Assembly (NCBI GenBank): GCA_902200405.1
Contig: CABIKN020000056.1
Coordinates: forward strand, 1-33,317
Source of the DNA: Candidatus Roizmanbacteria bacterium
GTDB lineage: Bacteria; Patescibacteriota; Microgenomatia; UBA1406; GWC2-37-13
Direction: 5' to 3'
DNA length: 33,317 nt
The position numbers were made by a program, and so were the translations under genes. Under the pieces are notes generated by a model. It did no database searches. It saw only the letters and a list, made by a program, of their open reading frames with translations, and was not told the origin of the DNA. Numbering within the stretch: position 1 is the first letter of the stretch; every line of letters starts with the position of its first letter. Positions 3,220 through 32,900 of this stretch are shown piece after piece.

Positions 3220-4836
3220 CTAAATAATATTTTTGCCGCAAATAACAAACATTTTTTGATAAAATGGAAAGATACCAGAGGTACCCAAGTGGCCAACGGG
3301 GGCAGACTGTAAATCTGCTGGGTTTTCCCTTCGAAGGTTCGAATCCTTCCCTCTGGACACATTAGAACGATACTCGGGAATAAGCAAGACATCATATGGC
3401 TTTTGGTAAGTCCAGACAAGCTTTCCTTCTTTTAGCTTGAGGTTCCAACCGACTTTTTGCACCGCTTTTCTTTTTTCATCCAACAACTTTGATTCAATCA
3501 TTTTTCGTGCGTAATAGGCTGTATCAAAAAAATCTACTGCAAGTTCCAACCAATTACGCTGATTATGAACAGCGTTATCTATCTTCTCTTGAATGGCGTT
3601 TTGTTCATTAATAATCTTGTCTTTTTTCTCTTGAAATTCTTCAGCTGTTATTTCTTCTTTGGCTCTCATCTTAAAATATCCATCCAGTTCATCTTGCTTT
3701 TTTTGATAACTTGTCTGTAGATTTATTGAGATAAGCTTTCTTTGTTTTGCTTCACTTTCATATTTTGCTTGAAGTAATTCAACCCCTAATTTCCAAGTTT
3801 CCTCATCTATCCTGACTGCTTCCAACTTTTCTACTATTTCCGCTTCCAAGTCCTCAAGGGTAGTTCCTTTTTCAAGACAATGACCACATCGTCTACTTGA
3901 ACGAGCATAGGTATACTCTGCATCCCTATCAGTTTTTTTGTAATGCTTAGTTTTGGTTTCAAAGACAATAGAAGCTCCACATTCACAACCGCATTTTAAC
4001 AGAGTAGCATAGGCCCAACTATTCTTTTGTTTTTTAGGCTTGGCTCGGTTATGTAAAACATCTTGAACCATATCAAAAAGTGATTTTGAAATTAAGACTT
4101 CGTAATTTCCTTTATGTAATTCACCCCCGTGACGATACCAACCATAATAAGTAGGATTTGATAAGATTTTTTGAAGGTGGGATTTACCTATCGGTTTTCC
4201 TTTCTTTGTTTTTAATCCCCATTTATTTATTAGCTCTGCCATTGTGCCAAGTGAATATTTGCCGGTTGAATATTCTTCAAATATTTTTATAACTATTGGT
4301 GCTTCATTAGAATCAATAATAATATTGGGATTACCATTTACTTTTTCGTTGCTATATCCTAAGGGAGCCCAACCACAGTATTCACCCCTTAAATATTTCT
4401 GTCGGTTTCCTCTTTTGATATTGTCACTTAAATCGTCAGAATATTTTGTTGACATTCCAAATTCCAAACTCATAAAAAATTTATCGTCTCCGGTATTTCT
4501 ATATTGTTTATGGGGAGTATCAACTTGTTTGATGATTCCGTCCGTAATAAGTTGTAAAAAATTTCCTCCGTCTTTATGATTCCTGGCTACTCGGTTAATC
4601 TGCCAAACTAAAACAGCATTTGCTTCTCCGGCTTCAATCTTTTTAATCATTTCGTTAAAAATTTCTCTTCCAGGCTTACGAGCAGATTTGCTTTCTGTAA
4701 GTATATTAACAATATGGAGATTACATTTTGAAGCATATTCTTTAAGCTCTCTTAACTGTGCATCAATAGAAAGGATTTGTCTCTTTTCATCTTCTTCTGA
4801 TTTCCTACAATAAATAAAATGCCTTAGCTTTTCCAT
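3220..4836 (-). CDS. Large serine recombinase whose C-terminus is antisense to tRNA-Tyr
   Basis: Site-specific recombinase of the large serine (resolvase/invertase fold) family, which cuts DNA through a 5'-phosphoserine. About 538 residues from ATG 4836. Resolvase domain: YCRKSEEDE with catalytic Ser13, then GEANAVLVWQINRVARN with the conserved Arg residues. Recombinase domain: PLGYSNEK and SNPTYYGWYRHGGE. Zinc ribbon: CGCECG ... RRCGHC. Then a coiled coil (about residues 375-430). The last ~45 residues (about 494 onward) are read through the antisense strand of tRNA-Tyr and into the hflX side, ending at 3220. A GTG at 4860 would add 8 residues, but it lies in a structured leader. This is probably the integrase of an element inserted at the tRNA 3' end. 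Its N-terminal half clearly resembles the recombinase at 31311-32900. Confidence 0.9.
   Translation of the reverse strand: MEKLRHFIYCRKSEEDEKRQILSIDAQLRELKEYASKCNLHIVNILTESKSARKPGREIFNEMIKKIEAGEANAVLVWQINRVARNHKDGGNFLQLITDGIIKQVDTPHKQYRNTGDDKFFMSLEFGMSTKYSDDLSDNIKRGNRQKYLRGEYCGWAPLGYSNEKVNGNPNIIIDSNEAPIVIKIFEEYSTGKYSLGTMAELINKWGLKTKKGKPIGKSHLQKILSNPTYYGWYRHGGELHKGNYEVLISKSLFDMVQDVLHNRAKPKKQKNSWAYATLLKCGCECGASIVFETKTKHYKKTDRDAEYTYARSSRRCGHCLEKGTTLEDLEAEIVEKLEAVRIDEETWKLGVELLQAKYESEAKQRKLISINLQTSYQKKQDELDGYFKMRAKEEITAEEFQEKKDKIINEQNAIQEKIDNAVHNQRNWLELAVDFFDTAYYARKMIESKLLDEKRKAVQKVGWNLKLKEGKLVWTYQKPYDVLLIPEYRSNVSRGKDSNLRRENPADLQSAPVGHLGTSGIFPFYQKMFVICGKNII
3275..3357 (+). tRNA. tRNA-Tyr (GTA)
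   Basis: Class II tRNA with a long variable arm. The acceptor stem CCAGAGG (3275-3281) pairs with CCTCTGG (3350-3356), discriminator A3357. Anticodon stem GCAGA/TCTGC encloses loop CTGTAAA with anticodon GTA at 3309-3311. The T arm is GAAGGTTCGAATCCTTC. CCA is not encoded (CAC follows). The first pair is C1-G72, whereas bacterial tRNA-Tyr usually has G1-C72. A TAAAAT box (3260-3265) lies 9 bases upstream. Its 3' end is the boundary of the serine recombinase gene on the other strand. Confidence 0.95.
3357..3365. other. Candidate attachment-site core at the tRNA-Tyr 3' end
   Basis: ACACATTAG begins at the tRNA discriminator base. The same 9-mer with one change, ACACCTTAG, lies at the 3' end of tRNA-Leu (31403-31411) beside the second recombinase. 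The shared sequence at both tRNA/recombinase junctions makes it a candidate crossover region. No second copy for this element was found in the window. Confidence 0.4.
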
Positions 4837-4841
4837 ATTAA

Positions 4842-4922
4842 AATGCCCCCGCTGGTGCACTCAGACCGGTTAGGATCTGTCCAACGAGGGCATTAAAAAT
4901 CCCAACCGAATTTCTGAGTGCA
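4842..4922 (-). promoter_or_regulatory. Interlocking alternative stem-loops in the recombinase leader
   Basis: Two inverted repeats interlock just upstream of the recombinase ATG (4836). Stem A pairs 4856-4865 (TGCACTCAGA) with 4913-4922, extended by 4867-4876 with 4899-4908. Stem B pairs 4842-4855 (AATGCCCCCGCTGG) with 4881-4894. The order in the recombinase-sense RNA is A, B, A', B', start codon. The three mismatches are A-C on the plus strand but G-U on the minus strand, so pairing is complete only in recombinase-sense RNA. There is no linker between A' and B', so both stems cannot easily form together: they look like alternatives. B' holds the G-rich stretch nearest the start codon. Confidence 0.6.
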
Positions 4923-8093: not shown

Positions 8094-10151
8094 ATGGAAA
8101 AGGTTGATTTTATTTCTTTAATAAAGGACTTATTTCCTGATTTTAAAGATGCAAAAATTACTTCTCAACGAAGAAGTAATAATGGTTTTTCCTTCTTAAT
8201 TCAAAAGGATGCTCTTTCAAGATGGGCAAAGATACCCACGTCATCTCAATACGAAGAAGATTTAATTGGAATAGAACAAAAGGCTTTAAGCGGAATAAAT
8301 AATCCCTATTTAATAAAATTATACGATGTTAGAACTCAATACATAAAAGGTCAAAGATATGATGTTTTAATGTTTGACTATATTGATGGGCAGGATTTAA
8401 AAAAAATATTAAAAAATGCTGATAAACCTTTTTCAGAAAAAGAAACTATCTCATTAATTAGCAATATAACTGAGGCAATTAAATCAATATGGGATAAGGG
8501 TTGGGTTCATCAAGATATTAAACCAAAAAACATAATCTTTGATAAAAATCAAAACAAATTTGTTTTATTAGACTTAGGAATTGCTTATTATGCAAATGAG
8601 TTTGCTTATAGTTCCGGAAGACATCCAAGTGAATATGTATCTCCTGAACAATTAAAGGCGCAAATGGGAGAAAGAGTCCAGGTAACTTTTAGCAGTGACC
8701 TATTCCAGTTAGGAATAATTGCTTATGAATCGTTAACTTTACAACACCCTTTTAAAGATGACCAAAAAAAATCAAAAATTAATTTTAAAAGAATTATAGA
8801 AGGTCAATATAAGCCCATCAGTGATTTTGATAGTCAAGTAAGCAAACAAACTGTACAAATTATTGAGAGATTGCTGAATCCAAATGCTGGCCATCGTTAT
8901 AGAGATCCAGAAGATTTATTATGTAATCTATCGGGTAAAGAATATAAGAAGCCATTAAATTTTAAAGAAGGTGTATATTTTCAGGTTTGGCCAGGTCCAC
9001 AAGGTTATAATAATATACTTGATTTTATTAGTAGTAAAAAGCCATCGGGGGTTGTTATCGGAGCAAGTCAAATACCATCAAATGATTTTATAGTTACTGT
9101 TAAAGAAAAAGGTTATAAATTAATTATTGACCCTGAAACATTTCTTCTCCAAGAAGGAATCCATCATTCTTGGCACGGTGATTTAGCTAAACAAAACTGG
9201 TATATGTCAGATTTAAATCCAAGCCTTTTTGCAAAGCCAAATTATATAAAAACTTTGATAGCTGGAGTTTTCGGTTTAGAAGCATCTCATAATGTTGATT
9301 ATTTTATTCCTCCTTATTTTAATATCCCAAATTATGATGATGAATGGAGACATATTAATAGGACAATGTTTTTAGAATTCCTCAAATATTCAAGAAGATT
9401 ATCGGAGAATAAACCTATTTTGTGTGGCATATCTATTTCTGAAAGTATTATAAACACAGAGAAAACCAGAAAAGAAATTGTTGATTTTTATTCTCAATTT
9501 TATTATTTCGATGCTTTTTTTCTCAGATTAGATGTAATGAAAAATAATTCCCCAACTTTAATAAAATCAGTTTCCAAGCTTATAGAAGAGTTACAATATC
9601 ATAAACCTGTTCTTTTGGCAGACGCAGACTTGGTCGCATTTGGGTATATGGCAAAGGGCTTATCTTCTTTATCAACATCTACAGCAGAAAGTAAAAGAAA
9701 ACATAATCTTGCCTCAAAAAATACTGAAAAAAAGGGTGGTGGTGGTGGAAAAGGTGGACCAAAAGATAAATTCTTCGTCCCAAAGTTACTACAATTTGTA
9801 AAAGTCGAAGGAGATTTGAGCGCATTAATTAGGGTTATTGGCGACGATGCGTTATGTGCTTGTGATTTGTGTAAAACTATAAACAAGAATAAAAAAATTG
9901 GAAAAGAAACAATAGAAGAATTTGTTACTAATTGGAAAAAAGGTGACAAAAATAATCATTTCTTCTGTTGTCTAAGCGAGTGGAAAGATTATATAAATAG
10001 CCATAAGCCTGAGGAGAGATTAGGAAAATATAAAGAATTAATTGATAGGGCAAAGAACATATACAAAAAGAATAAAGAAGATTTAAAATTCGTTCAAATA
10101 ATTTCTAATGGATGCTTTAAAGACTGGGAAGACGCTTTTTTCTCTACGTAA
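8094..10151 (+). CDS. Protein kinase fused to a TGT-like (zinc-binding, TIM-barrel-like) domain
   Basis: 685 residues. Residues ~15-280 are a Ser/Thr kinase domain: candidate ATP-binding Lys46, catalytic loop HQDIKPKN (Asp141), DLG in place of DFG (160-162), SPEQL (183-187) as the APE motif, and SDLFQLGIIAYESLT (Asp202). The glycine-rich loop is poorly preserved. Residues ~293-540 are a second alpha/beta domain, then a Gly-rich linker (547-556). At 588-622 there is CACDLC followed 28 residues later by His: CxCxxC-x28-H, close to the zinc site of tRNA-guanine transglycosylases. PVLLADADLVAFGYMAKGLS fits the TGT segment before the nucleophile, but the usual Asp nucleophile is not evident. The kinase is sure; the TGT link is inference. 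Its 3' end overlaps the convergent nuclease gene by 58 bases. Confidence 0.8.
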   Translation: MEKVDFISLIKDLFPDFKDAKITSQRRSNNGFSFLIQKDALSRWAKIPTSSQYEEDLIGIEQKALSGINNPYLIKLYDVRTQYIKGQRYDVLMFDYIDGQDLKKILKNADKPFSEKETISLISNITEAIKSIWDKGWVHQDIKPKNIIFDKNQNKFVLLDLGIAYYANEFAYSSGRHPSEYVSPEQLKAQMGERVQVTFSSDLFQLGIIAYESLTLQHPFKDDQKKSKINFKRIIEGQYKPISDFDSQVSKQTVQIIERLLNPNAGHRYRDPEDLLCNLSGKEYKKPLNFKEGVYFQVWPGPQGYNNILDFISSKKPSGVVIGASQIPSNDFIVTVKEKGYKLIIDPETFLLQEGIHHSWHGDLAKQNWYMSDLNPSLFAKPNYIKTLIAGVFGLEASHNVDYFIPPYFNIPNYDDEWRHINRTMFLEFLKYSRRLSENKPILCGISISESIINTEKTRKEIVDFYSQFYYFDAFFLRLDVMKNNSPTLIKSVSKLIEELQYHKPVLLADADLVAFGYMAKGLSSLSTSTAESKRKHNLASKNTEKKGGGGGKGGPKDKFFVPKLLQFVKVEGDLSALIRVIGDDALCACDLCKTINKNKKIGKETIEEFVTNWKKGDKNNHFFCCLSEWKDYINSHKPEERLGKYKELIDRAKNIYKKNKEDLKFVQIISNGCFKDWEDAFFST

Positions 10152-10840
10152 TCATTAAATAATCTTTCAAAAGTTACTGCTGAAAATTCTTTAGAATATG
10201 GTTTATCAAATTTTGGTCGATGTATTAATTTAATATTGTTTTTGATTGTATCAACTGTAACAAGGCCTATATTATGTTTCTTAAATAGTGATAAATTTTT
10301 TATTACTGGACGTTCGTATTTTTCATAAATAGCTAAAAAGGAATAATTTGAAAACCATTTATATCTATATGCTTGATAAAAACCCCTTTTCCAATCGGAT
10401 ATTTTTGCTTCTATAGAAAATAGATTATCAAGACAGGATTGATAATGATTTTCTACCCAATAATTTTCATCTTTAAAAGATTTACTCAAATAATTATTTT
10501 TAATCAAAAAATTAATGATTTTATACTTGATTACTTTTTCATCGTACGGAAGAGTTTTTAGTAAAAATGACATAGTTATTTTTTTCTTTCCTTCGATTAC
10601 AAGTAACGTTCTTAATATGTCTTTAGAAAGAATAGGCCCAACATTGTCATCTACTCTTTTTTTAAAAACTGACTTGTTAAATCTATAAAAAATTAAATCT
10701 GGGATGCCGTATGAAGAAGCAAATTCTTCACGAATGGAGTAATTTTTTAAATCATTAAATTTAGAATATTTATTTATGAAATCTTTTTTCAAAATTGGGA
10801 TTAATTCAGTTTCATAAACAATTTGTTGAGAAGAACTCAT
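10094..10840 (-). CDS. PD-(D/E)XK nuclease-like protein
   Basis: 248 residues. YGIPDLIFYRF (Asp48) and FSIEAKISDWKRGFYQAYRYK (Glu144-Ala-Lys146, then Asp149-Trp and Gln156-Ala) form the D ... E-x-K core plus helix of a restriction-endonuclease fold. SFLAIY ... HNIGLVTVD are the following strands. Between the two halves lies a winged-helix-like insert (LRTLLVIEGKKKITMSFLLKTL ... IINFLIKNNYLSKS). Proteins of this layout occur as stand-alone defence or regulatory nucleases; the true substrate is unknown. It has its own well-formed promoter and converges on the kinase-TGT-like gene, overlapping it by 58 bases. The nuclease fold is well supported by motifs; a partnership with the kinase is inference. 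Confidence 0.75.
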   Translation of the reverse strand: MSSSQQIVYETELIPILKKDFINKYSKFNDLKNYSIREEFASSYGIPDLIFYRFNKSVFKKRVDDNVGPILSKDILRTLLVIEGKKKITMSFLLKTLPYDEKVIKYKIINFLIKNNYLSKSFKDENYWVENHYQSCLDNLFSIEAKISDWKRGFYQAYRYKWFSNYSFLAIYEKYERPVIKNLSLFKKHNIGLVTVDTIKNNIKLIHRPKFDKPYSKEFSAVTFERLFNDYVEKKASSQSLKHPLEII

Positions 10841-15627: not shown

Positions 15628-16623
15628 CTATTTGATTAAGTATGAAAATTTTTTCTTGGTCAAATGGTCAAATAAAAAACAAAAGCCATAGCAGCTGATC
15701 GTAAACAAAAAGAGAAACAATAACGAATAATGATTGTTAAAGGTTTTAATGTTAGGAAATGTCTTCACGAGCTTCTCAAGAAATATTATGTGAAATAAAT
15801 AGACACCAAATGAATATGCTCCTAATATATTTATGAATTGACCTGCCTTTGGGGGTAATTGAAACTTACCGATCAGAAGTGACAAAGATAGAACAAAGAT
15901 CGTCCCAATAAACAGGTTAGCCCCCGAATAATTAAATCCGTGAGTCTCAGGAAATTTATAATAGGTCATTATAAAAAACGATATAACTGTCAGGAAAAGG
16001 AGAAAAATGGTTTTTTTATTTTGTTTATTCAAAGTTGCAAATAGGATTCCAAGTGATGCGTATTTTATTAGCTCTACTATCTGCCCATAGCTTCTTTTTA
16101 CTTCATTGATCATTGGGTTGAAGAAACGAAAACTGATACCCGAATAATCAAGGGTCAACGCCGCAATGATTATTACAAAATGCAGAGGAGTTCGGAGTTT
16201 TTGAGGAAGATACGTAATAAGCCAATAGATCAGTGTAAATAAGATCAATACATCCAAATAGTATAAAGGGGTATTAACTACCTTACCTGTGAGAATCTGA
16301 AGAAAAGCATTTTTAATGCTGAATAATTTTGGATTAAATATAAAACCCACTGCTGACCAAAAAATAAGAGGAAGGAATAATCTTTTTATTCTTGCCAAAA
16401 CAATTGAAAACGATAATTTCATTTGAGAAAAATATTTGTTCATAAAAAAGAAAGAAAGGGTCATAAATATCGGTACTGTGTAGGACCAAAGAGAACCAAA
16501 CAGATGAGCGTTGCTTGGAGTGATTACTCGGATATGAATATTTACAACTAAAAATATAAGGGCTATTTTTAATAGGTCAAAGAGTATGATCCTTGGGGAC
16601 TTAATAGTTTTTTTAGAAACCAT
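15628..16623 (-). CDS. Membrane acyltransferase (acyltransferase 3 family)
   Basis: 331 residues, about ten membrane helices. RIILFDLLKIALIFLVVNIHI is the start typical of the family, where an active-site His lies in the first helix (here NIHI). VLARIKRLFLPLIFWS is the conserved R-x-x-R-L-x-x-P segment. YSFGVYLFHIIFLEKLV is the late helix with 'Y..Hp' pattern. The family O-acylates sugars or glycans at the membrane. Divergent from the GT39-like gene with 27 bases between; the pair probably serves surface glycan. The exact substrate is unknown. Confidence 0.85.
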   Translation of the reverse strand: MVSKKTIKSPRIILFDLLKIALIFLVVNIHIRVITPSNAHLFGSLWSYTVPIFMTLSFFFMNKYFSQMKLSFSIVLARIKRLFLPLIFWSAVGFIFNPKLFSIKNAFLQILTGKVVNTPLYYLDVLILFTLIYWLITYLPQKLRTPLHFVIIIAALTLDYSGISFRFFNPMINEVKRSYGQIVELIKYASLGILFATLNKQNKKTIFLLFLTVISFFIMTYYKFPETHGFNYSGANLFIGTIFVLSLSLLIGKFQLPPKAGQFINILGAYSFGVYLFHIIFLEKLVKTFPNIKTFNNHYSLLFLFLFTISCYGFCFLFDHLTKKKFSYLIK

Positions 16624-18975: not shown

Positions 18976-19022
18976 TCTCACCTTAGTGGTTTAATTCTTC
19001 GATACTTGTATCAAAATATGTT

Positions 19023-19055
19023 TGTCATCCCCTTGAAGAAGGGGATCCAGTCTAT
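19023..19055. repeat. Palindromic repeat, half copy
   Basis: TGTCATCCCCTTGAAGAAGGGGATCCAGT is nearly identical to the left half of the unit at 26000-26065. It contains the hairpin CCCCTTGAAGAAGGGG. The right half (GATTCCCGC ... ATGACA) is missing here. Confidence 0.8.
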
Positions 19056-20115: not shown

Positions 20116-20119
20116 AGAT

Positions 20120-21004: not shown

Positions 21005-23005
21005 ATGTTTAAACTTAAATCCACATTTTCCCCAACTGGAGATCAGCCACAGGCGATTGAAAAATTAATTGCCGGAATTAAAATGGGAAAAAAAGATCAG
21101 GTGCTTTTGGGCGTGACCGGATCAGGAAAAACTTTTACCTTAGCAAATGTTATTGAAAAATTACAGATGCCGGCTCTCATCATTTCCCATAATAAAACTT
21201 TGGCCGGCCAGCTTTATCAGGAATTTCGTGATTTTTTTCCGGAAAACGCCGTTTCATACTTTGTTTCATATTACGATTACTATCAACCAGAAGCATATAT
21301 GCCATCTTCCGATACTTATATCGAAAAGGAAGCCCAGATCAATGAGCTAATTGATAAACTCCGTCTTAAAGCGACGACTAATATTTTAACCCGAAAAGAT
21401 GTGATTGTTGTTGCCTCAGTTTCCTGCATTTATAACATCGGTTCGCCTATTGAATATGGACGTTTTATTTTGGAACTGAAAGTAGGACAGAAGATAGAAA
21501 TAAAAAGCATTGCTCGTCGCTTAATTGAACTTCAATATTCCCGTAGTGAGTTTGATTTCAAGCGAGGAACTTTTAGAATTCGTGGGGACAGAATCGATAT
21601 TTATCCCGCCTATGAAGACATCGGTTACAGGATAACTTTGGAAGATAATATTGTTAAAAAAATAGAAACGTTTGAACCTTTAACTGGAAAACTAATCACT
21701 AATCACCAGCCACTAGCCACTGAATTAATAATCTATCCCGCCAAGCATTATCTGATGGATCCGGCTGTTTTTAAAGACGCCGAGCAACAGATTAGAGATG
21801 ATCTTAAAAAAGAATCAGAAAAGTTAAAAAAACAAAATAAGTTGGTTGAAATGCAAAGACTTGTCCGTAAAGTCAACTACGATTTAGAGATGATTAAAGA
21901 AGTTGGTTATGTAAATGGCATTGAAAACTATTCCCGTTATTTTGATGGGAGAAAAATTGGAGATCCGCCCTACAGTTTGATAAATTATTTTAATCAACAA
22001 TATGGAAGAGATTGGCTTTTGTTTATTGACGAATCCCATATGACCGTTCCTCAGATTAGAGGGATGTTTAATGGAGATTATTCCCGTAAAAATACTTTAA
22101 TTGATTATGGTTTTCGTTTAAGATCTGCTCTTGATAATCGTCCGTTAAAATTTGAGGAATTTTATCCGATGGCATCAAAGATAGTCTATGTTTCGGCAAC
22201 CCCTAATGAGTGGGAAATAGAAAAATCATCTGTGGTAGAACAATTAATTAGGCCGACAGGAATAATTGATCCGGAAATTATTATTAAACCATCGACAAAT
22301 GAGGTAGAAGATCTGATCATTGAAATTGCAAAAAGAGTCAAGGTAAAAGAAAAAGTACTTGTAACCACTTTAACAAAAAAAATGGCTGAAGATCTATCTG
22401 TTTATTTAAAAGAAAAAAAAATAAATGCTGCCTATATCCATAGCGATGTCAAAACTCTTGAAAGATCAAATATTTTGGATAATTTAAGAAAAGGAAATTT
22501 TGATGTTTTGATTGGTGTTAATTTACTTAGAGAAGGATTAGATTTACCGGAAGTAACATTGGTTGCAATTCTTGATGCCGACCGTGAGGGGTTCTTAAGA
22601 TCGAAGACTTCACTTGTCCAAACTATGGGAAGAGCATCCCGTAATATTACCGGCAAAGTTATTCTTTACGCTGATATAATGACAAAATCAATTACGCAAG
22701 CAGTCAGTGAGATTAACAGAAGAAGAAAATATCAGGTTAAGCATAATGTAAAACACAATATTACCCCAAAGACGATTTACAAACCAATTAGAGAAAAAAT
22801 CGTTAACCAAGATGAAAAAAATTTATTTTATGACCGTGACTTTGACGCAAAATATTTAGACGAAATGAATATTGAAAGTCTTACACCATTTGACAGAAAA
22901 AAATTAATTAAAAAAATGGAAAAAGAGATGAAGAACCAGGCAGAAAATTTAAATTTTGAGTTGGCGATTAAGATAAGAGAGAAGGTGAAAGAAATCAAAA
23001 GTTAA
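21005..23005 (+). CDS. uvrB: Excinuclease ABC subunit B
   Basis: 666 residues, full length. DNA-damage verification helicase of nucleotide excision repair, loaded by UvrA, then recruiting UvrC. Walker A GVTGSGKTFTLA; beta-hairpin region YFVSYYDYYQPEAY; DESH box FIDESHMTVPQIRGMF; motif V-VI GVNLLREGLDLPEVTLVAILDADREGFLRS and QTMGRASRN; UVR domain near the C-terminus (LIKKMEKEMKNQAENLNFELAIKIREKVKEI) for UvrC contact. The final residues and stop are made by the inverted repeat at 22995. Upstream 140 bases hold only AT-rich sequence and TAATAT 9 bases before the ATG. Confidence 0.98.
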   Translation: MFKLKSTFSPTGDQPQAIEKLIAGIKMGKKDQVLLGVTGSGKTFTLANVIEKLQMPALIISHNKTLAGQLYQEFRDFFPENAVSYFVSYYDYYQPEAYMPSSDTYIEKEAQINELIDKLRLKATTNILTRKDVIVVASVSCIYNIGSPIEYGRFILELKVGQKIEIKSIARRLIELQYSRSEFDFKRGTFRIRGDRIDIYPAYEDIGYRITLEDNIVKKIETFEPLTGKLITNHQPLATELIIYPAKHYLMDPAVFKDAEQQIRDDLKKESEKLKKQNKLVEMQRLVRKVNYDLEMIKEVGYVNGIENYSRYFDGRKIGDPPYSLINYFNQQYGRDWLLFIDESHMTVPQIRGMFNGDYSRKNTLIDYGFRLRSALDNRPLKFEEFYPMASKIVYVSATPNEWEIEKSSVVEQLIRPTGIIDPEIIIKPSTNEVEDLIIEIAKRVKVKEKVLVTTLTKKMAEDLSVYLKEKKINAAYIHSDVKTLERSNILDNLRKGNFDVLIGVNLLREGLDLPEVTLVAILDADREGFLRSKTSLVQTMGRASRNITGKVILYADIMTKSITQAVSEINRRRKYQVKHNVKHNITPKTIYKPIREKIVNQDEKNLFYDRDFDAKYLDEMNIESLTPFDRKKLIKKMEKEMKNQAENLNFELAIKIREKVKEIKS

Positions 23006-23103
23006 AAGTTAGAAGTCAAAAGTTAAATTAAAAAGTTAAAAGTTTTAAAACTTTTTATTTTTGACTTTCAATTTTGACTTTTGATTTTTTAATTTTGACT
23101 TAT
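22995..23103 (+). repeat. 110-bp inverted repeat, copy 2
   Basis: Reverse complement of 20120-20229 with only a few differences. It spans the uvrB stop to 5 bases before the uvrA ATG. In both copies the repeat has the same polarity relative to its genes: it starts at the stop of one and ends just before the start of the next. Confidence 0.85.
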
Positions 23104-23107
23104 AAAT

Positions 23108-25993
23108 ATGGATTACATAAAAATAAGAGGCGCTCGTCAGCACAATTTAAAAAACATCAACGTCGATATTCCAAAAAATAAATTCGTTGTTATTACAGGA
23201 ATTTCCGGATCGGGGAAATCGTCACTCGCTTTCGACACGATCTATGCCGAAGGACAACGACGTTATGTTGAGTCACTTTCAGCTTATGCCCGCCAGTTTT
23301 TAGGAATTATGGATAAACCTGACGTCGATTTGATCGAAGGTCTTTCTCCAGCCATATCAATAGATCAAAAAACAACTTCACATAATCCTCGTTCAACTGT
23401 TGGAACAATTACCGAAATTTACGACTATTTGCGTTTACTTTTTGCAAAAGTCGGCCATCCTCATTGCCCAAATTGTGGTCGGGAAATCAGCAAAATGTCA
23501 GTTGACGAAATTGTGGTAAGGGTAATGAAGGAAATTGAAAACAAAATTCTTACGGATAAAATTAAACCACATAAATTTTTAATAATATCTCCAATTGTGA
23601 GAAATAAAAAAGGCGAGTTTAGAGATCTTTTTGATAATCTTCGTTCAAAAGGATTGAATCAGATTATTGTTGATGGGAAAACTTTTAGCTTGGATGATGA
23701 GATTGATTTAATCAAAACGAACAAACATAAGATAGAGACAATCCTTGATACGATTTCTTTTGGTAATAAGGAAATGAAAAATAAAACTTTTGTAGAAAGT
23801 TTAAGGTCGAGATTAGTTACCGCTATTGAGCAATCTTTGAAACTTTCAGATGGGCTTGTGATTGTTAAGACCGGCGAGATAGAACATCTATATTCAGAAA
23901 AATTCTCCTGTCCAGTTTGCAATCTTTCGCTCCCTGAAATAGAACCAAGGATGTTTTCTTTTAATTCACCTCTTGGAGCTTGTGAAAATTGCCGAGGCTT
24001 GGGAACTATTTTTGCCGTTGATCGTGATTTGATTTTAAATAAGAATCTTTCTCTTCTTGAGGGTGGGATTCTTCCTTTTAATAAATTATTTTTTCATGAA
24101 ACTTGGTATGTTCGTTTAATAAAACGGGTATGTGAAGAGGAGGGGATTGACATGAATGAACAAATAAACAAATTAACAAATAAACAAATAGACACGCTTT
24201 TAAAAGGAACCAATAAAATTTATAGAGTTGAGGGTGTAAATCGATTCGGTCGGGCAACGACGATTACGGAAAAATTTTCCGGAATTATTGCTGAATTAGA
24301 ACGTAGATTTGTTGAAACTCAAGGAGATTACTCGGCTATGGAAATACAAAAATATATGCGGGAAGAAACCTGCCCAAAGTGCAAGGGTCTCAGATTAAAA
24401 CCGGAAATTTTGGCGATCACAATCGACAAAAAAAATATCACCCAAATTTCCGATCAATCAATCAATAATCTAACCAGTTATTTTAGGGAAAAATTAGAAA
24501 CAATTTTATCAGTTTATGAAAAGCAAATTGCCAAATCTATTGTCAAAGAAATTTTAACGAGATTAAATTTTTTAAATAGTGTTGGTCTATCTTATCTGAC
24601 AATTAGTCGAAAAGCCGGGACTTTATCCGGTGGAGAGCTGCAAAGAATTCGCCTGGCCTCCCAAATCGGGAGCGGTTTGACAGGTGTTCTTTATGTGCTT
24701 GACGAACCGTCGATCGGTCTTCATCCACGCGATGTTGCTTCATTAATTAAAACTCTAAAAAATCTTCGGGATTTAGGTAATAGCTTAATCGTCGTTGAAC
24801 ATGACCGGGAAACGATGGAATCGGCCGATTATTTGGTTGAGTTGGGCGAAAAAGCCGGTAAGAACGGGGGCAAAATAATTTTTAGTGGCCAACTTTCTGA
24901 AATGAAAAAAACAAAGTCCTCATTAACCGGTCAATATTTGACTGGGGAAAAATTAATCCAAATAAAGGGCGGAAAGACACCGCCCCTACATACGAATCAT
25001 GGTGAATTGATTTTTACAGGAATTACTCATAACAATTTAAAAAATATCAATATAAAAATTCCTTTAGGCAACCTAATTGGGGTGACAGGAGTCTCTGGCT
25101 CCGGAAAATCTTCCCTGGTGACAGAGACAATTTATCCAGCCCTTAAATATTATTTGGATGGTTATTTTCATGATAAAATTGGCGAGTTTAAAAAAATTGA
25201 AGGTTATCAATATCTTGATCGAGTTCATATGGTTGATCAATCGCCAATTGGTAGAACTCCTCGCTCTAATCCAGCTACTTATATTGGTTTTTTTGATGAA
25301 ATTAGGGAGATTTTTGCCTCGACAGTCGATGCCCGTGAACGAGGGTACGAAAAAGGAAGATTTTCTTTTAATATTAAAGGCGGCCGTTGTGAAAAGTGCC
25401 AGGGAGCTGGAGTTTTAAAAATAGAGATGCAGTTTTTGGCCGATGTTTACATCATTTGCGATGTCTGTCAGAGTAATCGTTATAACAAAGAAACACTTGA
25501 AGTTAAATATAAGGACAAAAATATTTATGAAATTTTAAAGATGACAGTTGATGAAGCTCTGATTTTTTTTAATAATCATTTTAAAGTATATTCTAAACTA
25601 AATTTTTTGCAAAAAACCGGATTAGGTTATTTGGAATTAGGCCAGCCGGCGCCAACATTGTCCGGAGGAGAAGCTCAGCGGTTAAAATTAGCTAATGAAT
25701 TATCAAAGCGTGATACGGGTAGAACTATTTACATACTTGATGAGCCGACGACCGGTTTACATTTTTATGACATTAGTAAATTACTTCATACGATTACTGA
25801 GTTAGTTGACCGCGGTAATACGGTGATTGTTATAGAACACAATCTTGATGTTATTAAAAGCTGTCAATATATAATTGATCTTGGACCCGATGGAGGAGAT
25901 AATGGGGGAAAGGTGATTTATCAGGGAGAAATGAATGGTATTCTTAAAGAAAAGGAATCATATACGGGGGAATATCTCAGAAAAATAAAATAA
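23108..25993 (+). CDS. uvrA: Excinuclease ABC subunit A
   Basis: 961 residues, full length. DNA-damage sensor, an ABC-type ATPase dimer. First Walker [15 protein letters not shown]; first zinc-type motif CPNCGREIS ... [21 protein letters not shown]; signature [38 protein letters not shown] (residues about 505-545); second Walker [12 protein letters not shown]; second zinc finger [17 protein letters not shown] ... CDVCQ; second signature [16 protein letters not shown] and [12 protein letters not shown] short palindromic insert is visible at [15 protein letters not shown] before the second ATPase half. Follows uvrB directly. The upstream gap is a repeat. Confidence 0.98.
24967..24985. repeat. 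GC-rich palindromic insert inside uvrA
   Basis: GGGCGG-AAAGACA-CCGCCC, followed by CTACA, in frame within uvrA and coding for GGKTPP. UvrA proteins usually have only a short variable linker here, so this looks like a small palindromic element tolerated in a loop. Confidence 0.55.
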
Positions 25994-25999
25994 TGTAGT

Positions 26000-26065
26000 T
26001 GTCATCCCCTTGAAGAAGGGGATCCAGTATATTTAGTCTAGATTCCCGCCTCCGCGGGAATGACA
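26000..26065. repeat. TGTCAT-ended palindromic repeat unit, full copy
   Basis: A 66-base unit: TGTCAT at the left end, ATGACA at the right end, with hairpins CCCCTTGAAGAAGGGG and TCCCGCCTCCGCGGGA inside. The left half recurs at 19023. Lies between uvrA and the transglutaminase-like gene and may act as terminator for uvrA. Confidence 0.8.
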
Positions 26066-26076
26066 ATAACCAAATT

Positions 26077-27912
26077 ATGAAATTTTTATTCAAGTATTTA
26101 TTTTTCGTACTTATATCATCTATCATCTTTCATCTATCATCTGCCAGTGTTCTTGCTGCTGAATTTAAGACCGACTATCAAGTTGAATATAATCTTTCTC
26201 AATCACAAAATAATTTAAATTCTCAAGTGATTTTTAAAATAAAGATCATTAATTTAAAAAGTGAAGTATTTGTCAGTAAATTTTCTATAAGTATTCCTAA
26301 TACTTTTTCAATTACTAATCTTAAAACCTCTGATGACAACGGATATATTACACCTAAAATTACGACTGACGAAGATAAAACTAAGATAGAATTGGAATTT
26401 TCAAATCCAGCCGTTGGAAAAGATTCAGTGAACACTTTTTTTTTGAACTTTGATCAAGCTAATTTATTTAAAGTTAACGGTAAGATCTGGGAAGTAGTTT
26501 TACCCGTCATAGAAAGTAAAGAAAATGAATCTCATACAGTGACGGTTAATCTACCGGAAACAACGAACAAAAAAATTTCTATTTCAAAACCAAAACCCGA
26601 CTTGGTTACAGGAAATAAAATAATTTGGAACAACCCAAATACTAGAACGATCTATGCTGTTTTTGGGGAGAGTCAAGTTTACCAATCAGAATTAACATAT
26701 CACTTGAAAAATGACCAAATTTACCCAATTTTTACAGAAGTCGCTTTTCCACCAGAAACTCCTAATCAGAAGATATTTTTACAATCAATAAATAAACCAC
26801 CAGAATCTGTCCGCATAGATGAAGATGGAAATTATTTGGGGAAATATTTTCTTAAGCCGCTAGAAACAAAAACAATTGTTTATAAAAGTTTAATTGAGGT
26901 TTATTCAAAAACAAGAGATGAAGCCACTCCATATTTTAGATCAATAATTAATCAGCAAAAAAATCACTTACTTACAGCAAAAAAATATTGGCAGATAAGT
27001 AAAGTTGATTTCGCTGAAAACATTAATACCCCAAAAGAGATCTATAATTTTGTCACGAGTAGCCTTAAATATAATTACAGCAAAATTAATTCAAATAATA
27101 AACGTTTAGGAGCAGAGGCTGTTTTATCAAACCCTGACCAAGCAGTTTGTATGGAATTTACTGATCTTTTTATTGCTATTGCTAGGGAAAAAGGAATTTA
27201 TAGCCGGGAAATACAAGGTTATGGTTTTTCTTTGGATCCCAAGCTACAACCTTTATCTTTATCGTCTGATATTTTACATGCTTGGCCGGAGTACTATGAT
27301 TTAAAAACTGAAAGCTGGATAGCGGTTGATCCAACTTGGGAGAACACTTCGGGGATTGATTATTTTTCTTCATTTGATCTTAATCACATAGCTTTTGTTA
27401 TTCATGGAAAAAATCCGGAGTATCCGCAGCCTGCCGGGATGTATAAGATAGAAAATTCCCGCGACGTCTCTATCAAACCAACGACGGACAAACCAATAGA
27501 AAAAAAGGAAATTGTTATTGAAGGAATAAATTTTCCAACCACAATTTCTGACAAAAAATCTTATAAAGGAAAATTTATTATTAAGAATAATGGGAATAGT
27601 TATCTTTGGCAGGTTCCCGTTAATCTAGAAGCAAAAAACATCATCATTGAGAAAGAAAAATTTGTTATTCCAGTTTTGGCCCCTTTTGAAAAAAAGTCGA
27701 TTACTTTTAACTATTCTTCAGGGGAAAAAAATAAAAGAATCCAGGGAATATTAACGATAAATGTTTTACAAAAACAGCTTTTAGAACAAAAAATTAACAT
27801 CATTCCTTTTATCTATACTTTAATAATTAAAATTTTTGCCGTTCTTTTAGGTCTATCTGTTCTATTTTTAATTTATAGAGTAATTTTAAACATAAAGCGT
27901 CATGATCACTAA
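26077..27912 (+). CDS. Exported transglutaminase-like protein, C-terminal anchor
   Basis: 611 residues. Signal peptide (FLFKYLFFVLISSIIFHLSS ... SVLAAEF). Two beta-rich segments (about 30-270). Transglutaminase core about 320-460: AVCMEFTDLFIAIAREKG (Cys), DILHAWPEYYD (His), WIAVDPTWENTSG (Asp), the Cys-His-Asp triad in its usual order. Then an immunoglobulin-like region (YKGKFIIKNNGNSYLWQVPV) and one membrane helix near the C-terminus (LIIKIFAVLLGLSVLFLIYRVIL). Bacterial members act as cysteine proteases or amide transferases outside the membrane; the target is unknown. Its last bases overlap uvrC by 11, so co-transcription with repair genes is likely positional, not functional. Confidence 0.88.
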   Translation: MKFLFKYLFFVLISSIIFHLSSASVLAAEFKTDYQVEYNLSQSQNNLNSQVIFKIKIINLKSEVFVSKFSISIPNTFSITNLKTSDDNGYITPKITTDEDKTKIELEFSNPAVGKDSVNTFFLNFDQANLFKVNGKIWEVVLPVIESKENESHTVTVNLPETTNKKISISKPKPDLVTGNKIIWNNPNTRTIYAVFGESQVYQSELTYHLKNDQIYPIFTEVAFPPETPNQKIFLQSINKPPESVRIDEDGNYLGKYFLKPLETKTIVYKSLIEVYSKTRDEATPYFRSIINQQKNHLLTAKKYWQISKVDFAENINTPKEIYNFVTSSLKYNYSKINSNNKRLGAEAVLSNPDQAVCMEFTDLFIAIAREKGIYSREIQGYGFSLDPKLQPLSLSSDILHAWPEYYDLKTESWIAVDPTWENTSGIDYFSSFDLNHIAFVIHGKNPEYPQPAGMYKIENSRDVSIKPTTDKPIEKKEIVIEGINFPTTISDKKSYKGKFIIKNNGNSYLWQVPVNLEAKNIIIEKEKFVIPVLAPFEKKSITFNYSSGEKNKRIQGILTINVLQKQLLEQKINIIPFIYTLIIKIFAVLLGLSVLFLIYRVILNIKRHDH

Positions 27913-29173
27913 GAATCAGATAAATAACCTACCTAATACGATAGGTCTCTATTTTTTTAAGAATAACAAAGTAATTAATTACATTGGCAAATCGGTCAAT
28001 ATCAAAGCTAGAGTATTATCTCATCTGGAAAATGCTAAATTGGATAATAAAGAAAGATTGATAATTGATAATTCAAATAAAATTGAAACAATTGTCACCG
28101 AATCGGAATTTAAGGCCTTAATTCTTGAGGCGAAATTAATTAGAGAATTTCAACCGAAATATAATTCGATTTGGAAAGATGATAAAAGCCCGCTTTATGT
28201 TAAAATAACCAATAATGACGAATTTCCAAAGATAGTTATTACTCGCAAACCCTCGGATAAATCGTTATATTTCGGTCCTTTTTCATCAGTCAGAATGGTT
28301 GAAAAAATTATTAATGATATCAGACGAATCATACCGTTTTGCACCCAAAAAAAAATCAGTAAAAAGGCTTGTTTTTATTCCAAAATTAATCTATGCGATC
28401 CTTGTCCGAATGAGATAAATAATTGTAGAGACGAGGCATGCCTCGTCTTAAAAAAACAATATAAAAAAAATATAAAACAAGTAATCTCTATATTAAATGG
28501 GAATGTAAAAGAAATTATAAATAGTCTAAATCATCAATTAAATATATTGATAAGAGATGAGCATTATGAGGAAGCTATTGTTATTCGCAATAAAATATTT
28601 AGATTCAACCGATTACTAAGTTTAAAAGATGACTATGACTTTTCTGTCAATAATAATGAAAAAAGAATAGGTAAATTGCTTGTTATTTTGAAAAAATATT
28701 TTCCAAAAATTAAGGCGCTTAATCGAATCGAGACATATGATATTAGCAATTTAGGATTAAAACAGGCAGTTGGATCGATGGTAGTGATGAAAGACGGTCA
28801 GATTGATAAAAAAGAATACCGCAAATTTAAAATAAAACAATTTGGTTTGAGATCAGACTTTGACAGATTAAAGGAAGTTATAAATAGAAGACTTAAACAG
28901 AAATGGATGTTCCCTGATTTGATTATTATCGATGGAGGTAAACCGCAAATCAAGGCAATTTTAACAGTGTTTGAATTTAATAAAATATCCATACCTTTAG
29001 TTGGAATAGCCAAAAATCCAGATAGAGTGATTGTGGGAATTGAAGGCTATCCAAATTTATTCCTAAAAAATGACAGTAGTGTCTTAAATGTTATTAGACT
29101 TATGCGTGATGAATCACACCGCTTTGCCCGTAAATATCATCTGTTTTTAAGAAGTAAGGACTTTTTGATATAA
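27902..29173 (+). CDS. uvrC: Excinuclease ABC subunit C, short form
   Basis: 423 residues against ~600 in typical bacteria. GIY-YIG nuclease at the N-terminus: GLYFFKNNKVINYIGKSVNIKAR, with Glu in ESEFKALILEAKLIREFQPKYN. Cys cluster CFYSKINLCDPCPN. UVR motif near residues 215-240 (EEAIVIRNKIFRF). C-terminal RNase H-like nuclease: ETYDISNLGLKQAVGSMVV, LIIIDGGKPQ, RDESHRFARKYH with the catalytic acids. The tandem helix-hairpin-helix domain that normally follows is absent; the gene stops right after the nuclease. A 20-base perfect palindrome lies inside (28429-28448), coding RDEACL. It makes the two incisions with UvrB. Confidence 0.95.
   Translation: MITKNQINNLPNTIGLYFFKNNKVINYIGKSVNIKARVLSHLENAKLDNKERLIIDNSNKIETIVTESEFKALILEAKLIREFQPKYNSIWKDDKSPLYVKITNNDEFPKIVITRKPSDKSLYFGPFSSVRMVEKIINDIRRIIPFCTQKKISKKACFYSKINLCDPCPNEINNCRDEACLVLKKQYKKNIKQVISILNGNVKEIINSLNHQLNILIRDEHYEEAIVIRNKIFRFNRLLSLKDDYDFSVNNNEKRIGKLLVILKKYFPKIKALNRIETYDISNLGLKQAVGSMVVMKDGQIDKKEYRKFKIKQFGLRSDFDRLKEVINRRLKQKWMFPDLIIIDGGKPQIKAILTVFEFNKISIPLVGIAKNPDRVIVGIEGYPNLFLKNDSSVLNVIRLMRDESHRFARKYHLFLRSKDFLI
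28429..28448. repeat. Perfect 20-bp palindrome inside uvrC
   Basis: AGACGAGGCATGCCTCGTCT is its own reverse complement. It is in frame within uvrC, just after the Cys cluster, and GC-rich in an AT-rich gene. It looks like a small mobile palindrome inserted in frame. Confidence 0.7.
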
Positions 29174-29174: not shown

Positions 29175-29185
29175 GATTGGGTCAT

Positions 29186-29584
29186 ATGAAAAAAATATTT
29201 AGAATGATAGTTTTTTCCGCAGTAGCCATATTTCTTACGGCTCTTTGGAATAAAGGTTTTATTATAAAATCTGATCCGATGATATATATAAAAGCAGCCT
29301 TACTAATCGCAGCGGTTTATTATCTGGTTCTGCCGATTAGCAAATTAATTTTATTGCCATTAAATATTATTTCTTTAGGTTTAGTTTCAGTGATATTTTA
29401 TTCGGCGGTTCTGTTTTTTTTGTTCAATCAGTTTGATTTAATAGCTGTTAAAGAGTGGATTTTTCCAGGTGCTAAGATATTTGGAATTACATTAAGTAAG
29501 ATTCAAATTTCAGGTACGGCCAATATCTTTGTTTCCTCTTTTTCGATTTCTACCATTATTAATTTATTAGAAAAAATAATATGA
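29186..29584 (+). CDS. Small membrane protein, phage-holin-like (Hol4-type)
   Basis: 132 residues with four hydrophobic segments: MIVFSAVAIFLTALW, IKAALLIAAVYYLVLPISKLILLPLNIISLGLVSVIFYSAV as two to three helices, and a C-terminal NIFVSSFSISTIINLL. The P-I-S-K-L-I-L-L-P-L-N pattern after the second helix is that of the 'phage holin family 4 / mycobacterial 4 TMS' proteins, widespread chromosomal membrane proteins despite the name. A TTG at 29177 is open, but ATG 29186 fits the TATAAT spacing. Overlaps secG by 4 bases. Confidence 0.7.
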   Translation: MKKIFRMIVFSAVAIFLTALWNKGFIIKSDPMIYIKAALLIAAVYYLVLPISKLILLPLNIISLGLVSVIFYSAVLFFLFNQFDLIAVKEWIFPGAKIFGITLSKIQISGTANIFVSSFSISTIINLLEKII

Positions 29585-31310: not shown

Positions 31311-32900
31311 TTATTTTAAAAAGTCGGGGTGGCGAAATGGTATACGCGCAAGCTTGAGGGGCTTGTGGTCGCAAGACTGTGGAGGTTCAAGTCCTCTCCC
31401 CGACACCTTAGTCCCGACTTGTCGGGCGGCGCGGAGCGCCGCCCACTGTTCCGGAAGGTCACAATCGACTATTCTGTCTTTTAGAGTGAGGTTCGAGCCG
31501 GTCTTTTTTAGGAACTCTCTTTTTTGAAAAAGATTTATGTTGTCCGATGCGATTTTATCTGCTTCTACCGCCGTATCAAAGAATTCTCTCATAGGTTCGA
31601 GCCACTTATTTGGTGATTGTTCAAGAGTCTCTATTCTCTGCTCAATAGTCTTCTTCTCACTCATAAACTTTTCCTTTCTGTTAAGGTAATCCTCTCGGCT
31701 AACAACATTATCTAAGTAAGAATCTAAAAGTTTGTTGAGTTTGTCATTGATATTGAGCAGATCTTTCTTGAACTCTTGAACAATCACCAACACTTCTGAC
31801 CGCTGTTGGCATTTATCATCTTCAAGTCTTTTTATTAGCCAACTGTGGTCAGAAGTGGACAAAGAAACTTTTTGAATATGTTGGTTAAGTTGGGTGGTTA
31901 AAATCTCTTGACTGATAAAGGGTTGCGAACAGGGAATAAACCTACTTTTACGGGTACAGTGGTAATAGATAAAGTCTTTCTCATGGTTAACCGTTTCATA
32001 ACGCCTAAAGTGATGTTCGGCGGTAACCATCATTTGACACTCTCCACAACGGATCAAACCCGTAAAAGGGAATTCAAGAGATTTTATGGGAAAAGTATGG
32101 CTTTTAGCCTTCTTAACCAACTGCACTTCATCAAAAAGTTTCTTTGTAATAAGTGGCTCATGGATTCCTTGATATATTTCCTTTTTGAAGCGAAAATGTC
32201 CATAGTAAAAGGGGTTTGAGAGATAAAACTTTATCTTATCTTTTTTGAAAAATTTACCTTTGCTAGTCATGATACCTTTTTCCCCAAGAAATATACTTAA
32301 TTTTTCAAAAGTATATTGACCGGTTGAATAAAGTTCGAATATTTCCTTTATGGCAGGCGATACTTTAGGGTCAACTACTATCTTTTTATTCAACCGGTCA
32401 TTGAGATAACCTAGGGGAGCTTTACCGGGGCATTCACCTTTACGTACCTTCTGCCTCAAACCCCTTTTAGTATTTTCGCTCAAGGAATCCACATAGTATT
32501 TGCTTTGACCAAAAGCAATTGATAACATGAAAAGTCCCTGCGGGGTATTCTGAAACCAGAAAGTCGGGAACTTAAGATCAGTTAAGATGTCACGATCAAG
32601 AAGATATACAACTTTGCCAGCATCAACTGCGTTACGAGCTAATCTATCCGGGTGCCATGCCAAGATACCTTGAGCTTCGCCCGCCTCAATTTTGCCCAAC
32701 ATTTGGTTAAATATATCTCTCCCTGGAACTTTAGCAGTTTTACTCTCAATAAATGTTTCAGCTATATTTAACCCCTCTTTTTGGGCAAATTCACGAAGCT
32801 CATCAATCTGGGCAGGGATAGATAGCAGTTGATGCACTTGATCGTCAGTCGACTTTCTGGCATAAAGAAAATATTTTGAAGCTGGAGCAGGGCTTTTCAT
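31311..32900 (-). CDS. Large serine recombinase whose C-terminus is antisense to tRNA-Leu
   Basis: 529 residues. Resolvase domain YARKSTDDQVHQLLSIPAQ with catalytic Ser17, and GEAQGILAWHPDRLARN. Recombinase domain PLGYLNDR, SNPFYYGHFRFKKE. Zinc ribbon GLIRCGECQMMV ... YYHCTRKS ... C. Coiled coil about 380-440. Residues 499-526 are read from the antisense strand of tRNA-Leu (GLEPPQSCDHKPLKLARIP), ending 12 bases beyond it. Just before this, a GC-rich pair of palindromes (GGCGGCGCTCCGCGCCGCC and CCCGACAAGTCGGG) codes for ALRAARQVGT. ATG 32900 directly follows a leader of interlocking repeats. Clearly related to the recombinase at 3220-4836, though far from identical. Confidence 0.92.
   Translation of the reverse strand: MKSPAPASKYFLYARKSTDDQVHQLLSIPAQIDELREFAQKEGLNIAETFIESKTAKVPGRDIFNQMLGKIEAGEAQGILAWHPDRLARNAVDAGKVVYLLDRDILTDLKFPTFWFQNTPQGLFMLSIAFGQSKYYVDSLSENTKRGLRQKVRKGECPGKAPLGYLNDRLNKKIVVDPKVSPAIKEIFELYSTGQYTFEKLSIFLGEKGIMTSKGKFFKKDKIKFYLSNPFYYGHFRFKKEIYQGIHEPLITKKLFDEVQLVKKAKSHTFPIKSLEFPFTGLIRCGECQMMVTAEHHFRRYETVNHEKDFIYYHCTRKSRFIPCSQPFISQEILTTQLNQHIQKVSLSTSDHSWLIKRLEDDKCQQRSEVLVIVQEFKKDLLNINDKLNKLLDSYLDNVVSREDYLNRKEKFMSEKKTIEQRIETLEQSPNKWLEPMREFFDTAVEADKIASDNINLFQKREFLKKTGSNLTLKDRIVDCDLPEQWAALRAARQVGTKVSGRGLEPPQSCDHKPLKLARIPFRHPDFLK
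31323..31405 (+). tRNA. tRNA-Leu (GAG)
   Basis: Class II tRNA. Acceptor GTCGGGG (31323-31329) with CCCCGAC (31398-31404), discriminator A31405. Anticodon stem CAAGC/GCTTG with loop TTGAGGG, anticodon GAG at 31356-31358. Long variable arm TGGTCGCAAGACTGT. T arm GGAGGTTCAAGTCCTC. CCA is not encoded (CCT follows). It overlaps the antisense 3' end of the second recombinase gene. Confidence 0.95.
31403..31411. other. Candidate attachment-site core at the tRNA-Leu 3' end
   Basis: ACACCTTAG spans the last tRNA bases; compare ACACATTAG at 3357-3365 and GCACCTTAG (reverse complement of 33271-33279). Present at all three recombinase 3' ends in the window. Confidence 0.4.
31404..31474. repeat. Inverted repeat, tRNA-Leu side
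   Basis: About 70 bases inside the recombinase 3' end match the reverse complement of 33208-33278 with one mismatch (GGAACAG versus GGATCAG). It contains two GC-rich palindromes and the candidate crossover sequence. Confidence 0.85.

Follow-up and report, generated by a model that had tools for sequence, protein, structure and literature searches.

Phages can shield their DNA with modified bases, some of them deazaguanines that are produced with the help of TGT relatives; one such relative, DpdA, puts deazaguanines into DNA alongside restriction genes. Enzymes of the TGT superfamily typically carry a CxCxxC...H zinc site, and in TGT the Asp of the FDC motif acts as nucleophile while the Asp of SDSGG serves as general acid/base.

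In Dpd (7-deazaguanine DNA) systems, a TGT-superfamily protein is found in a DNA-conflict setting (PMC6884629), and in BRC systems (BREX-related capture with TGT and GNAT) a TGT homologue has become part of a composite defence locus (PMC12839542). Here, we analyzed a gene pair from a Candidatus Roizmanbacteria contig (CABIKN020000056.1; “the window” refers to the whole stretch of 33,317 nucleotides), in which a kinase–TGT-like fusion gene faces a predicted nuclease gene. We propose that the two genes make up a single conserved module that moves horizontally and is most likely an anti-invader (phage or plasmid) defence system, a reading to which we give a probability of about 0.5. From its predicted domains, the module is best read as an undescribed multi-gene candidate defence built from known domain superfamilies. 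No description of the kinase–TGT-like plus nuclease combination was found in the open literature, which takes in few subscription papers and bioRxiv preprints. Since Pfam and PADLOC contain no dedicated family for either the TGT-like domain or the nuclease, current defence finders miss the module.

Architecture of the gene pair

The fusion and nuclease genes are convergent, with 3′ ends overlapping by 58 bp in the open reading frame list of the window (Table 1). The predicted architecture of the module is well supported by conservation and structure models, beginning with the kinase domain. The sequence-only reading had described a 685-residue kinase fusion, and this description held: the open reading frame is present, the Pfam scan matched PF00069 (Pkinase) at residues 56–269 with E = 1.6e-31, and the motif table lists HQDIKPKN, LLDLG, SPEQ, and the lysine in WAKIP, the kinase motifs being intact in nearly all family members. 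The Lys, HxD...N, and DxG motifs are thus combined with a Pfam domain, as in Hanks-type Ser/Thr kinases. PADLOC matches of the fusion gene to PD-T4-6, mad6, and others were set aside as confined to the kinase domain, and phage protein matches to the fusion protein covered essentially the kinase half only.

Table 1 Features of the window. Positions are window coordinates; residues are those of the encoded protein.
Feature	Position	Strand	Basis
Large serine recombinase of the island, 3′ end extending across tRNA-Tyr	3220..4860	-	Resolvase + Recombinase Pfam
tRNA-Tyr, integration site; synteny breaks at 3358-3360	3275..3358	+	Comparison with relatives
Kinase–TGT-like fusion gene, 685 aa	8094..10151	+	ORF, Pfam, AF2, hhalign, conservation
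Hanks-type protein kinase domain, N-terminal, residues 1-281 (HQDIKPKN, DLG, SPE)	8094..8936	+	PF00069 1.6e-31, motif table
TGT-like (beta/alpha)8 barrel, residues 292-685	8967..10148	+	AF2 pTM 0.85; hhalign vs TGT P 3.2e-5
Asp346-Pro-x-Thr motif, end of barrel strand 3	9129..9140	+	Asp, Pro kept in 24/25
Zinc cysteines Cys588, Cys590, Cys593	9855..9872	+	Conservation, global alignment with TGT
Zinc ligand His622	9957..9959	+	Conserved 25/26
Predicted PD-(D/E)XK nuclease gene, 248 aa, inserted winged helix	10094..10840	-	ORF, conservation, AF2, Foldseek
Winged helix-turn-helix insertion, nuclease residues about 73-129	10454..10624	-	AF2 pLDDT 90; Foldseek, HMM matches
Nuclease Glu144-Ala145-Lys146 (ExK)	10403..10411	-	Glu144, Lys146 invariant in 22 sequences
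Nuclease Asp48	10697..10699	-	Nearly invariant, 22 sequences

The kinase is not joined to the barrel everywhere. Among 28 loci with both genes, it is fused to the TGT-like domain in about 21, a count that includes genes evidently fused but cut by a contig end. It is a separate neighbour gene in three loci (Pullulanibacillus L025, Doudnabacteria L035, and G929 in L060), and no kinase gene was seen beside the pair in the remaining four, of which L017 and L019 have a PIN-domain gene, L036 a SIR2-like gene, and L059 neither. Given these four lineages with no kinase gene beside the pair, a kinase relay would not be universal.

The partner gene had been taken for a PD-(D/E)XK nuclease on account of Asp48, Glu144, and Lys146, an assignment that both residue conservation and the modelled core topology bear out. 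Across 22 nuclease homologues, no variation occurs at Glu10, Glu144, Lys146, Lys151, and Gln156, and very little at Glu39 and Asp48. The AlphaFold2 (AF2) model (pLDDT 90) has a helix-strand-strand-strand-helix-strand core, in which a winged helix is inserted between the Asp48 strand and the Glu144-x-Lys146 strand; in alignment and model, the D, the E-x-K, and the flanking E and Q lie on the expected topology. Foldseek matches to solved structures were weak (best E 1e-3 to 4e-3, none below 1e-3) and split between nuclease-type folds (3dnx, XisH, and the Cas4-like ACE1) and winged helices, the winged helix being also matched by sequence and HMM searches. We take 3dnx and XisH to be PD-(D/E)XK folds. 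No Pfam, NCBIfam, or PADLOC family was found for the core. On the conserved residues and the model, the 248-aa protein is a predicted PD-(D/E)XK nuclease with its own winged helix. Because the motifs recur in family sequences that are mostly 15–30% identical, their sharing is far above chance.

Probable TGT ancestry and the question of base exchange

From a 21-sequence alignment, AlphaFold2 predicted a (beta/alpha)8 fold for the barrel, with strands and helices alternating in barrel order (pTM 0.85); structure prediction thus did not yield a fold unrelated to TGT. Single-sequence Pfam and PADLOC scans gave no TGT or DpdA match to the barrel. The PDB sequence searches returned nothing significant, the top match being the zinc region of an archaeosine TGT; a gasdermin match (E 0.047) was dismissed as chance. 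The PDB fold search placed assorted unrelated TIM barrels on top, with no TGT among the best 50 matches, and in the viral-library fold search a Sulfolobales virus queuine tRNA-ribosyltransferase ranked second, among the highest TM-scores, with two more annotated phage TGTs within the first 30.

The mixed TIM barrels leading the PDB fold search, and a sequence identity to TGT of about 15%, would fit a generic TIM barrel that gained its zinc motif independently. We consider such an origin rather improbable, because the deciding test, a profile-versus-profile comparison of 26 barrel-family members with 42 Patescibacteria TGTs, gave a match well beyond its controls. Specifically, hhalign scored the match at 45.5 (P 3.2e-5), with strands 4–8 in their correct barrel register. 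The reversed TGT profile scored 18.6, the best of 30 column shuffles 23.7, and the dihydrouridine synthases, another TIM barrel represented by a profile of only seven sequences, 20.1. Known phage DpdA scored only 25.6 against the same TGT profile. In addition, global alignment places the barrel CxCxxC on the TGT zinc cysteines, and both the archaeosine TGT zinc region, despite its non-significant score, and the viral TGTs among the highest-TM fold matches speak against an unrelated barrel. Descent from the TGT superfamily, the relationship first suspected from the sequence, is thus highly probable on the profile evidence.

The zinc site had been read as CxCxxC-x28-H at Cys588, Cys590, Cys593, and His622; these positions proved exact, and the site is kept family-wide. 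Among aligning sequences, the ligands are conserved in 21/22, 23/23, 22/23, and 25/26, respectively, and some or all of them are missing in five of the 26 TGT-like members. Besides the zinc ligands, D346-P347, Tyr370, Pro407, Gly522, and Ala653 are near-invariant in the family alignment. The usual Asp nucleophile, not evident in the single sequence, is absent throughout: the position of the strand 8 FDC Asp is occupied by Glu, Ser, Thr, Gly, Ala, or Val, and by Asp in none of the 26 sequences. Asp346, which ends a plausible strand, may be the counterpart of the SDSGG general acid/base Asp; the two are left unpaired in the global alignment.

The genome of the window lacks both PF01702 TGT and a convincing full-length QueC, which would supply preQ0, and a convincing full-length QueC was found in six of 19 host genomes (13/19 without). 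Since Asp never occupies the nucleophile position and neither TGT nor a convincing QueC is present in the host, base exchange by the barrel is unlikely, and we infer that the barrel binds rather than exchanges. The kinase-controlled base exchange suggested by the sequence-only reading is accordingly not supported. A Dpd-like restriction-modification system, in which the TGT-like domain places a modified base in the host's own DNA, the nuclease attacks DNA without that modification, and the kinase acts as regulator, would draw on the TGT ancestry of the barrel, the nuclease partner, an Asp346-Pro that could be catalytic, and the restriction-modification genes adjoining several relatives. It is nonetheless very unlikely: the missing nucleophile (26/26) and the host gene content, including the 13 hosts without convincing QueC, count against it, as do the lack of any DpdA match in PADLOC scans and in hhalign comparisons with ten phage DpdA-type proteins, and the lack of deazaguanine genes among the scanned neighbours.

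Pairing, distribution, and genomic setting

Among 380 sampled genomes of the phylum, profile searches detected the TGT-like half in five and the nuclease in six, all TGT-positive genomes being nuclease-positive (hypergeometric P 9e-11). In the sixth nuclease genome (G261), a TGT-like gene one gene away from the nuclease was recognised from its sequence, and the pair was located together in 6/6 genomes having the genes. A nuclease-profile scan blind to the other gene, with one genome per species, yielded 23 loci; a TGT-like gene lay in the same cluster at 22 of them, and at the 23rd the nuclease is cut at the contig start. These loci span Patescibacteria (Microgenomates, Adlerbacteria, Dojkabacteria, WWE3, and Doudnabacteria), Firmicutes (Bacilli, Pullulanibacillus, Lachnospiraceae, Clostridia, and Halanaerobiales), and one bacterium binned as UBP11. 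The reverse scan with the TGT-like profile matched one of 291 Clostridia and, credibly, four of 300 Bacilli, and the nuclease adjoins the TGT-like gene in 5/5 of these, of which two are query genomes and three are independent and new relative to the nuclease scan. A match in G933 was rejected as a spurious fragment with stops. The pairing claimed from the sequence is thus upheld in both scan directions, and the 22/23 nuclease loci contradict the converse expectation that homologues of the two genes almost never occur together.

Pairwise distances of the two proteins were correlated across 26 loci (Mantel r 0.94, P 2e-4; r 0.61 for divergent pairs only), and sequence comparison supports co-inheritance of the barrel and nuclease genes. 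The pair is sporadic, at about 0.3–1.7% of genomes sampled, and its gene order varies, being convergent or co-directional in different orders. A Priestia megaterium plasmid, p6_CACC119, carries the same convergent overlapping pair, whose products are WP_322552809.1 and WP_322552810.1, and viral contigs scanned with nuclease and TGT-like queries contained no relative. One Patescibacteria genome (G387) holds two divergent module copies, L061 and L070. On Gordonia (L037, 5968-7212) and Clavibacter (L038, 5851-7125) plasmids, a TGT-like barrel gene stands next to RES/Xre with no nuclease; these barrels are possibly a further branch of the TGT-like family.

The window copy of the module lies on a tRNA-Tyr island with a serine recombinase, in line with the mobile block proposed at the outset. 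Three same-genus relatives are collinear with the window until 3358-3360 and then diverge, and in one same-genus relative synteny returns at window position 15628 after only 626 bp. A right-hand att repeat of the island was sought and not found, and its right end was not located. Serine recombinases or an integrase also occur near several other module copies.

Defence genes are frequent among the neighbours listed at the scanned loci, which is a listing rather than an enrichment figure against random loci. The module adjoins a complete Type I restriction-modification set and an SMC-like ATPase in L063, a MmeI-type enzyme in L030 (with similar upstream genes, by sequence, in L026 and L031-L033), an Eco57I-type methylase and an ABC-3C CTD1 protein in L027, and a Cap4 nuclease and AbiEii in L029; PIN, SIR2_2, and RES genes were further neighbours at Pfam-scanned loci. 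Taken as such a listing, the nearby defence genes and mobile elements, together with the sporadic distribution, fit the context expected of a defence system.

Part of this setting could also reflect other roles. The module might serve control of its host element or housekeeping, i.e., excision, conjugation, or DNA repair of the island rather than immunity, as the recombinases near several copies and weak fold matches of the nuclease gene to XisH-type excision factors (2inb, 2okf) might suggest. We regard this as distinctly improbable, however, as many copies have no adjacent recombinase, the accompanying recombinases are unrelated, and the module occurs with diverse defence genes. A toxin-antitoxin or addiction module, in which the kinase-TGT protein neutralises a nuclease (or PIN, or SIR2) toxin and thereby stabilises the island or plasmid, would agree with the location on a plasmid and islands, the convergent overlapping genes in several lineages, and the RES/Xre toxin-antitoxin genes adjoining the actinobacterial plasmid relatives. 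Yet the kinase-TGT protein is large, with two enzyme-like domains, unlike classical antitoxins, the alternation between convergent and co-directional order is unusual for such pairs, and chromosomal copies often lie near restriction and defence genes, which makes this role unlikely.

Several other features of the window were recorded. A second large serine recombinase (31311-32900, -) has a 3′ end overlapping tRNA-Leu (31323-31407, +) and probably belongs to a second tRNA-borne element that extends beyond the window. One stretch (21005-29173) holds uvrB, uvrA, a transglutaminase-like protein gene, and uvrC; PADLOC matches to mad3/mad8 and PbeA-type models at 21-26 kb are UvrA and UvrB, not defence. 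Directly behind uvrC, a small membrane protein (29177-29584) has weak similarity to phage holin family 4_2. A 41-nt intergenic, REP-like repeat, 90% identical between its copies at 19015-19055 and 25992-26032, contains TCATCCCC...GGGGATCCA, and a 118-nt repeat occurs at 20117 and 22987.

Proposed function and comparison with known systems

Under the defence reading, the TGT-derived domain, without base exchange, would recognise a nucleic-acid feature of infection, candidate triggers being an altered tRNA or, in invader DNA, a base that is modified or exposed. Recognition would activate the attached kinase, which might phosphorylate the nuclease or an associated inhibitor, and the nuclease, placed by its winged helix, would then cut DNA. 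Fusion and operons suggest that the kinase transmits and the nuclease executes. Since some lineages have a PIN or SIR2-like gene and no kinase, the TGT-like protein and the nuclease may be the constant core and the third part (kinase, PIN, or SIR2-like) an exchangeable relay or effector. More tentatively, the module could represent a new immune-signalling class, in which a TGT barrel without its nucleophile senses nucleic-acid bases, for instance in modified phage DNA or altered tRNA, and drives the attached Ser/Thr kinase, which in turn licenses the winged-helix nuclease; other lineages would use PIN or SIR2 modules.

A host module in which a catalytically altered TGT barrel is joined by a kinase and a nuclease would make a natural counter-sensor to modified phage DNA and, if true, would show how a tRNA-modifying enzyme could turn into an immune receptor. 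For Patescibacteria, whose defences are poorly known, the module would add a candidate immune system. The Priestia megaterium plasmid is mobilizable and its host is cultured, so the module is testable in laboratory Bacillus.

The nearest described systems are Dpd, BRC, and the kinase-based systems, none of which has the combination seen here. The nuclease shares the E, D, ExK, and Q residues and the alpha-beta topology of PD-(D/E)XK nucleases, but has a winged helix inserted after the Asp strand and ahead of the ExK strand. PD-T4-6, MADS mad6, and BREX PglW likewise have a Hanks-type kinase, and PADLOC and NCBIfam models match the kinase domain only; no model of these systems matches the barrel or the nuclease gene. 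The BREX/Pgl partners PglZ and BrxC/PglY were absent among Pfam-scanned genes of the window and selected relatives. With the TGT family (PF01702), the barrel shares the (beta/alpha)8 fold, the CxCxxC..H zinc site after strand 8, and profile similarity over strands 4-8; unlike TGT, it has no Asp nucleophile and no Pfam-level match, is fused to a kinase, and occurs in genomes without queuosine genes. As in BRC systems, a TGT homologue is recruited into a composite locus (PMC12839542), but here with a kinase fusion and a PD-(D/E)XK partner, and with no PglZ, DUF6079, STAND, or HerA among the scanned genes. Finally, as in Dpd systems and phage DpdA, a TGT-superfamily protein occurs in a DNA-conflict setting (PMC6884629), but here with no detectable DpdA similarity, no deazaguanine synthesis genes among scanned neighbours, and a kinase in place of DpdB/C.
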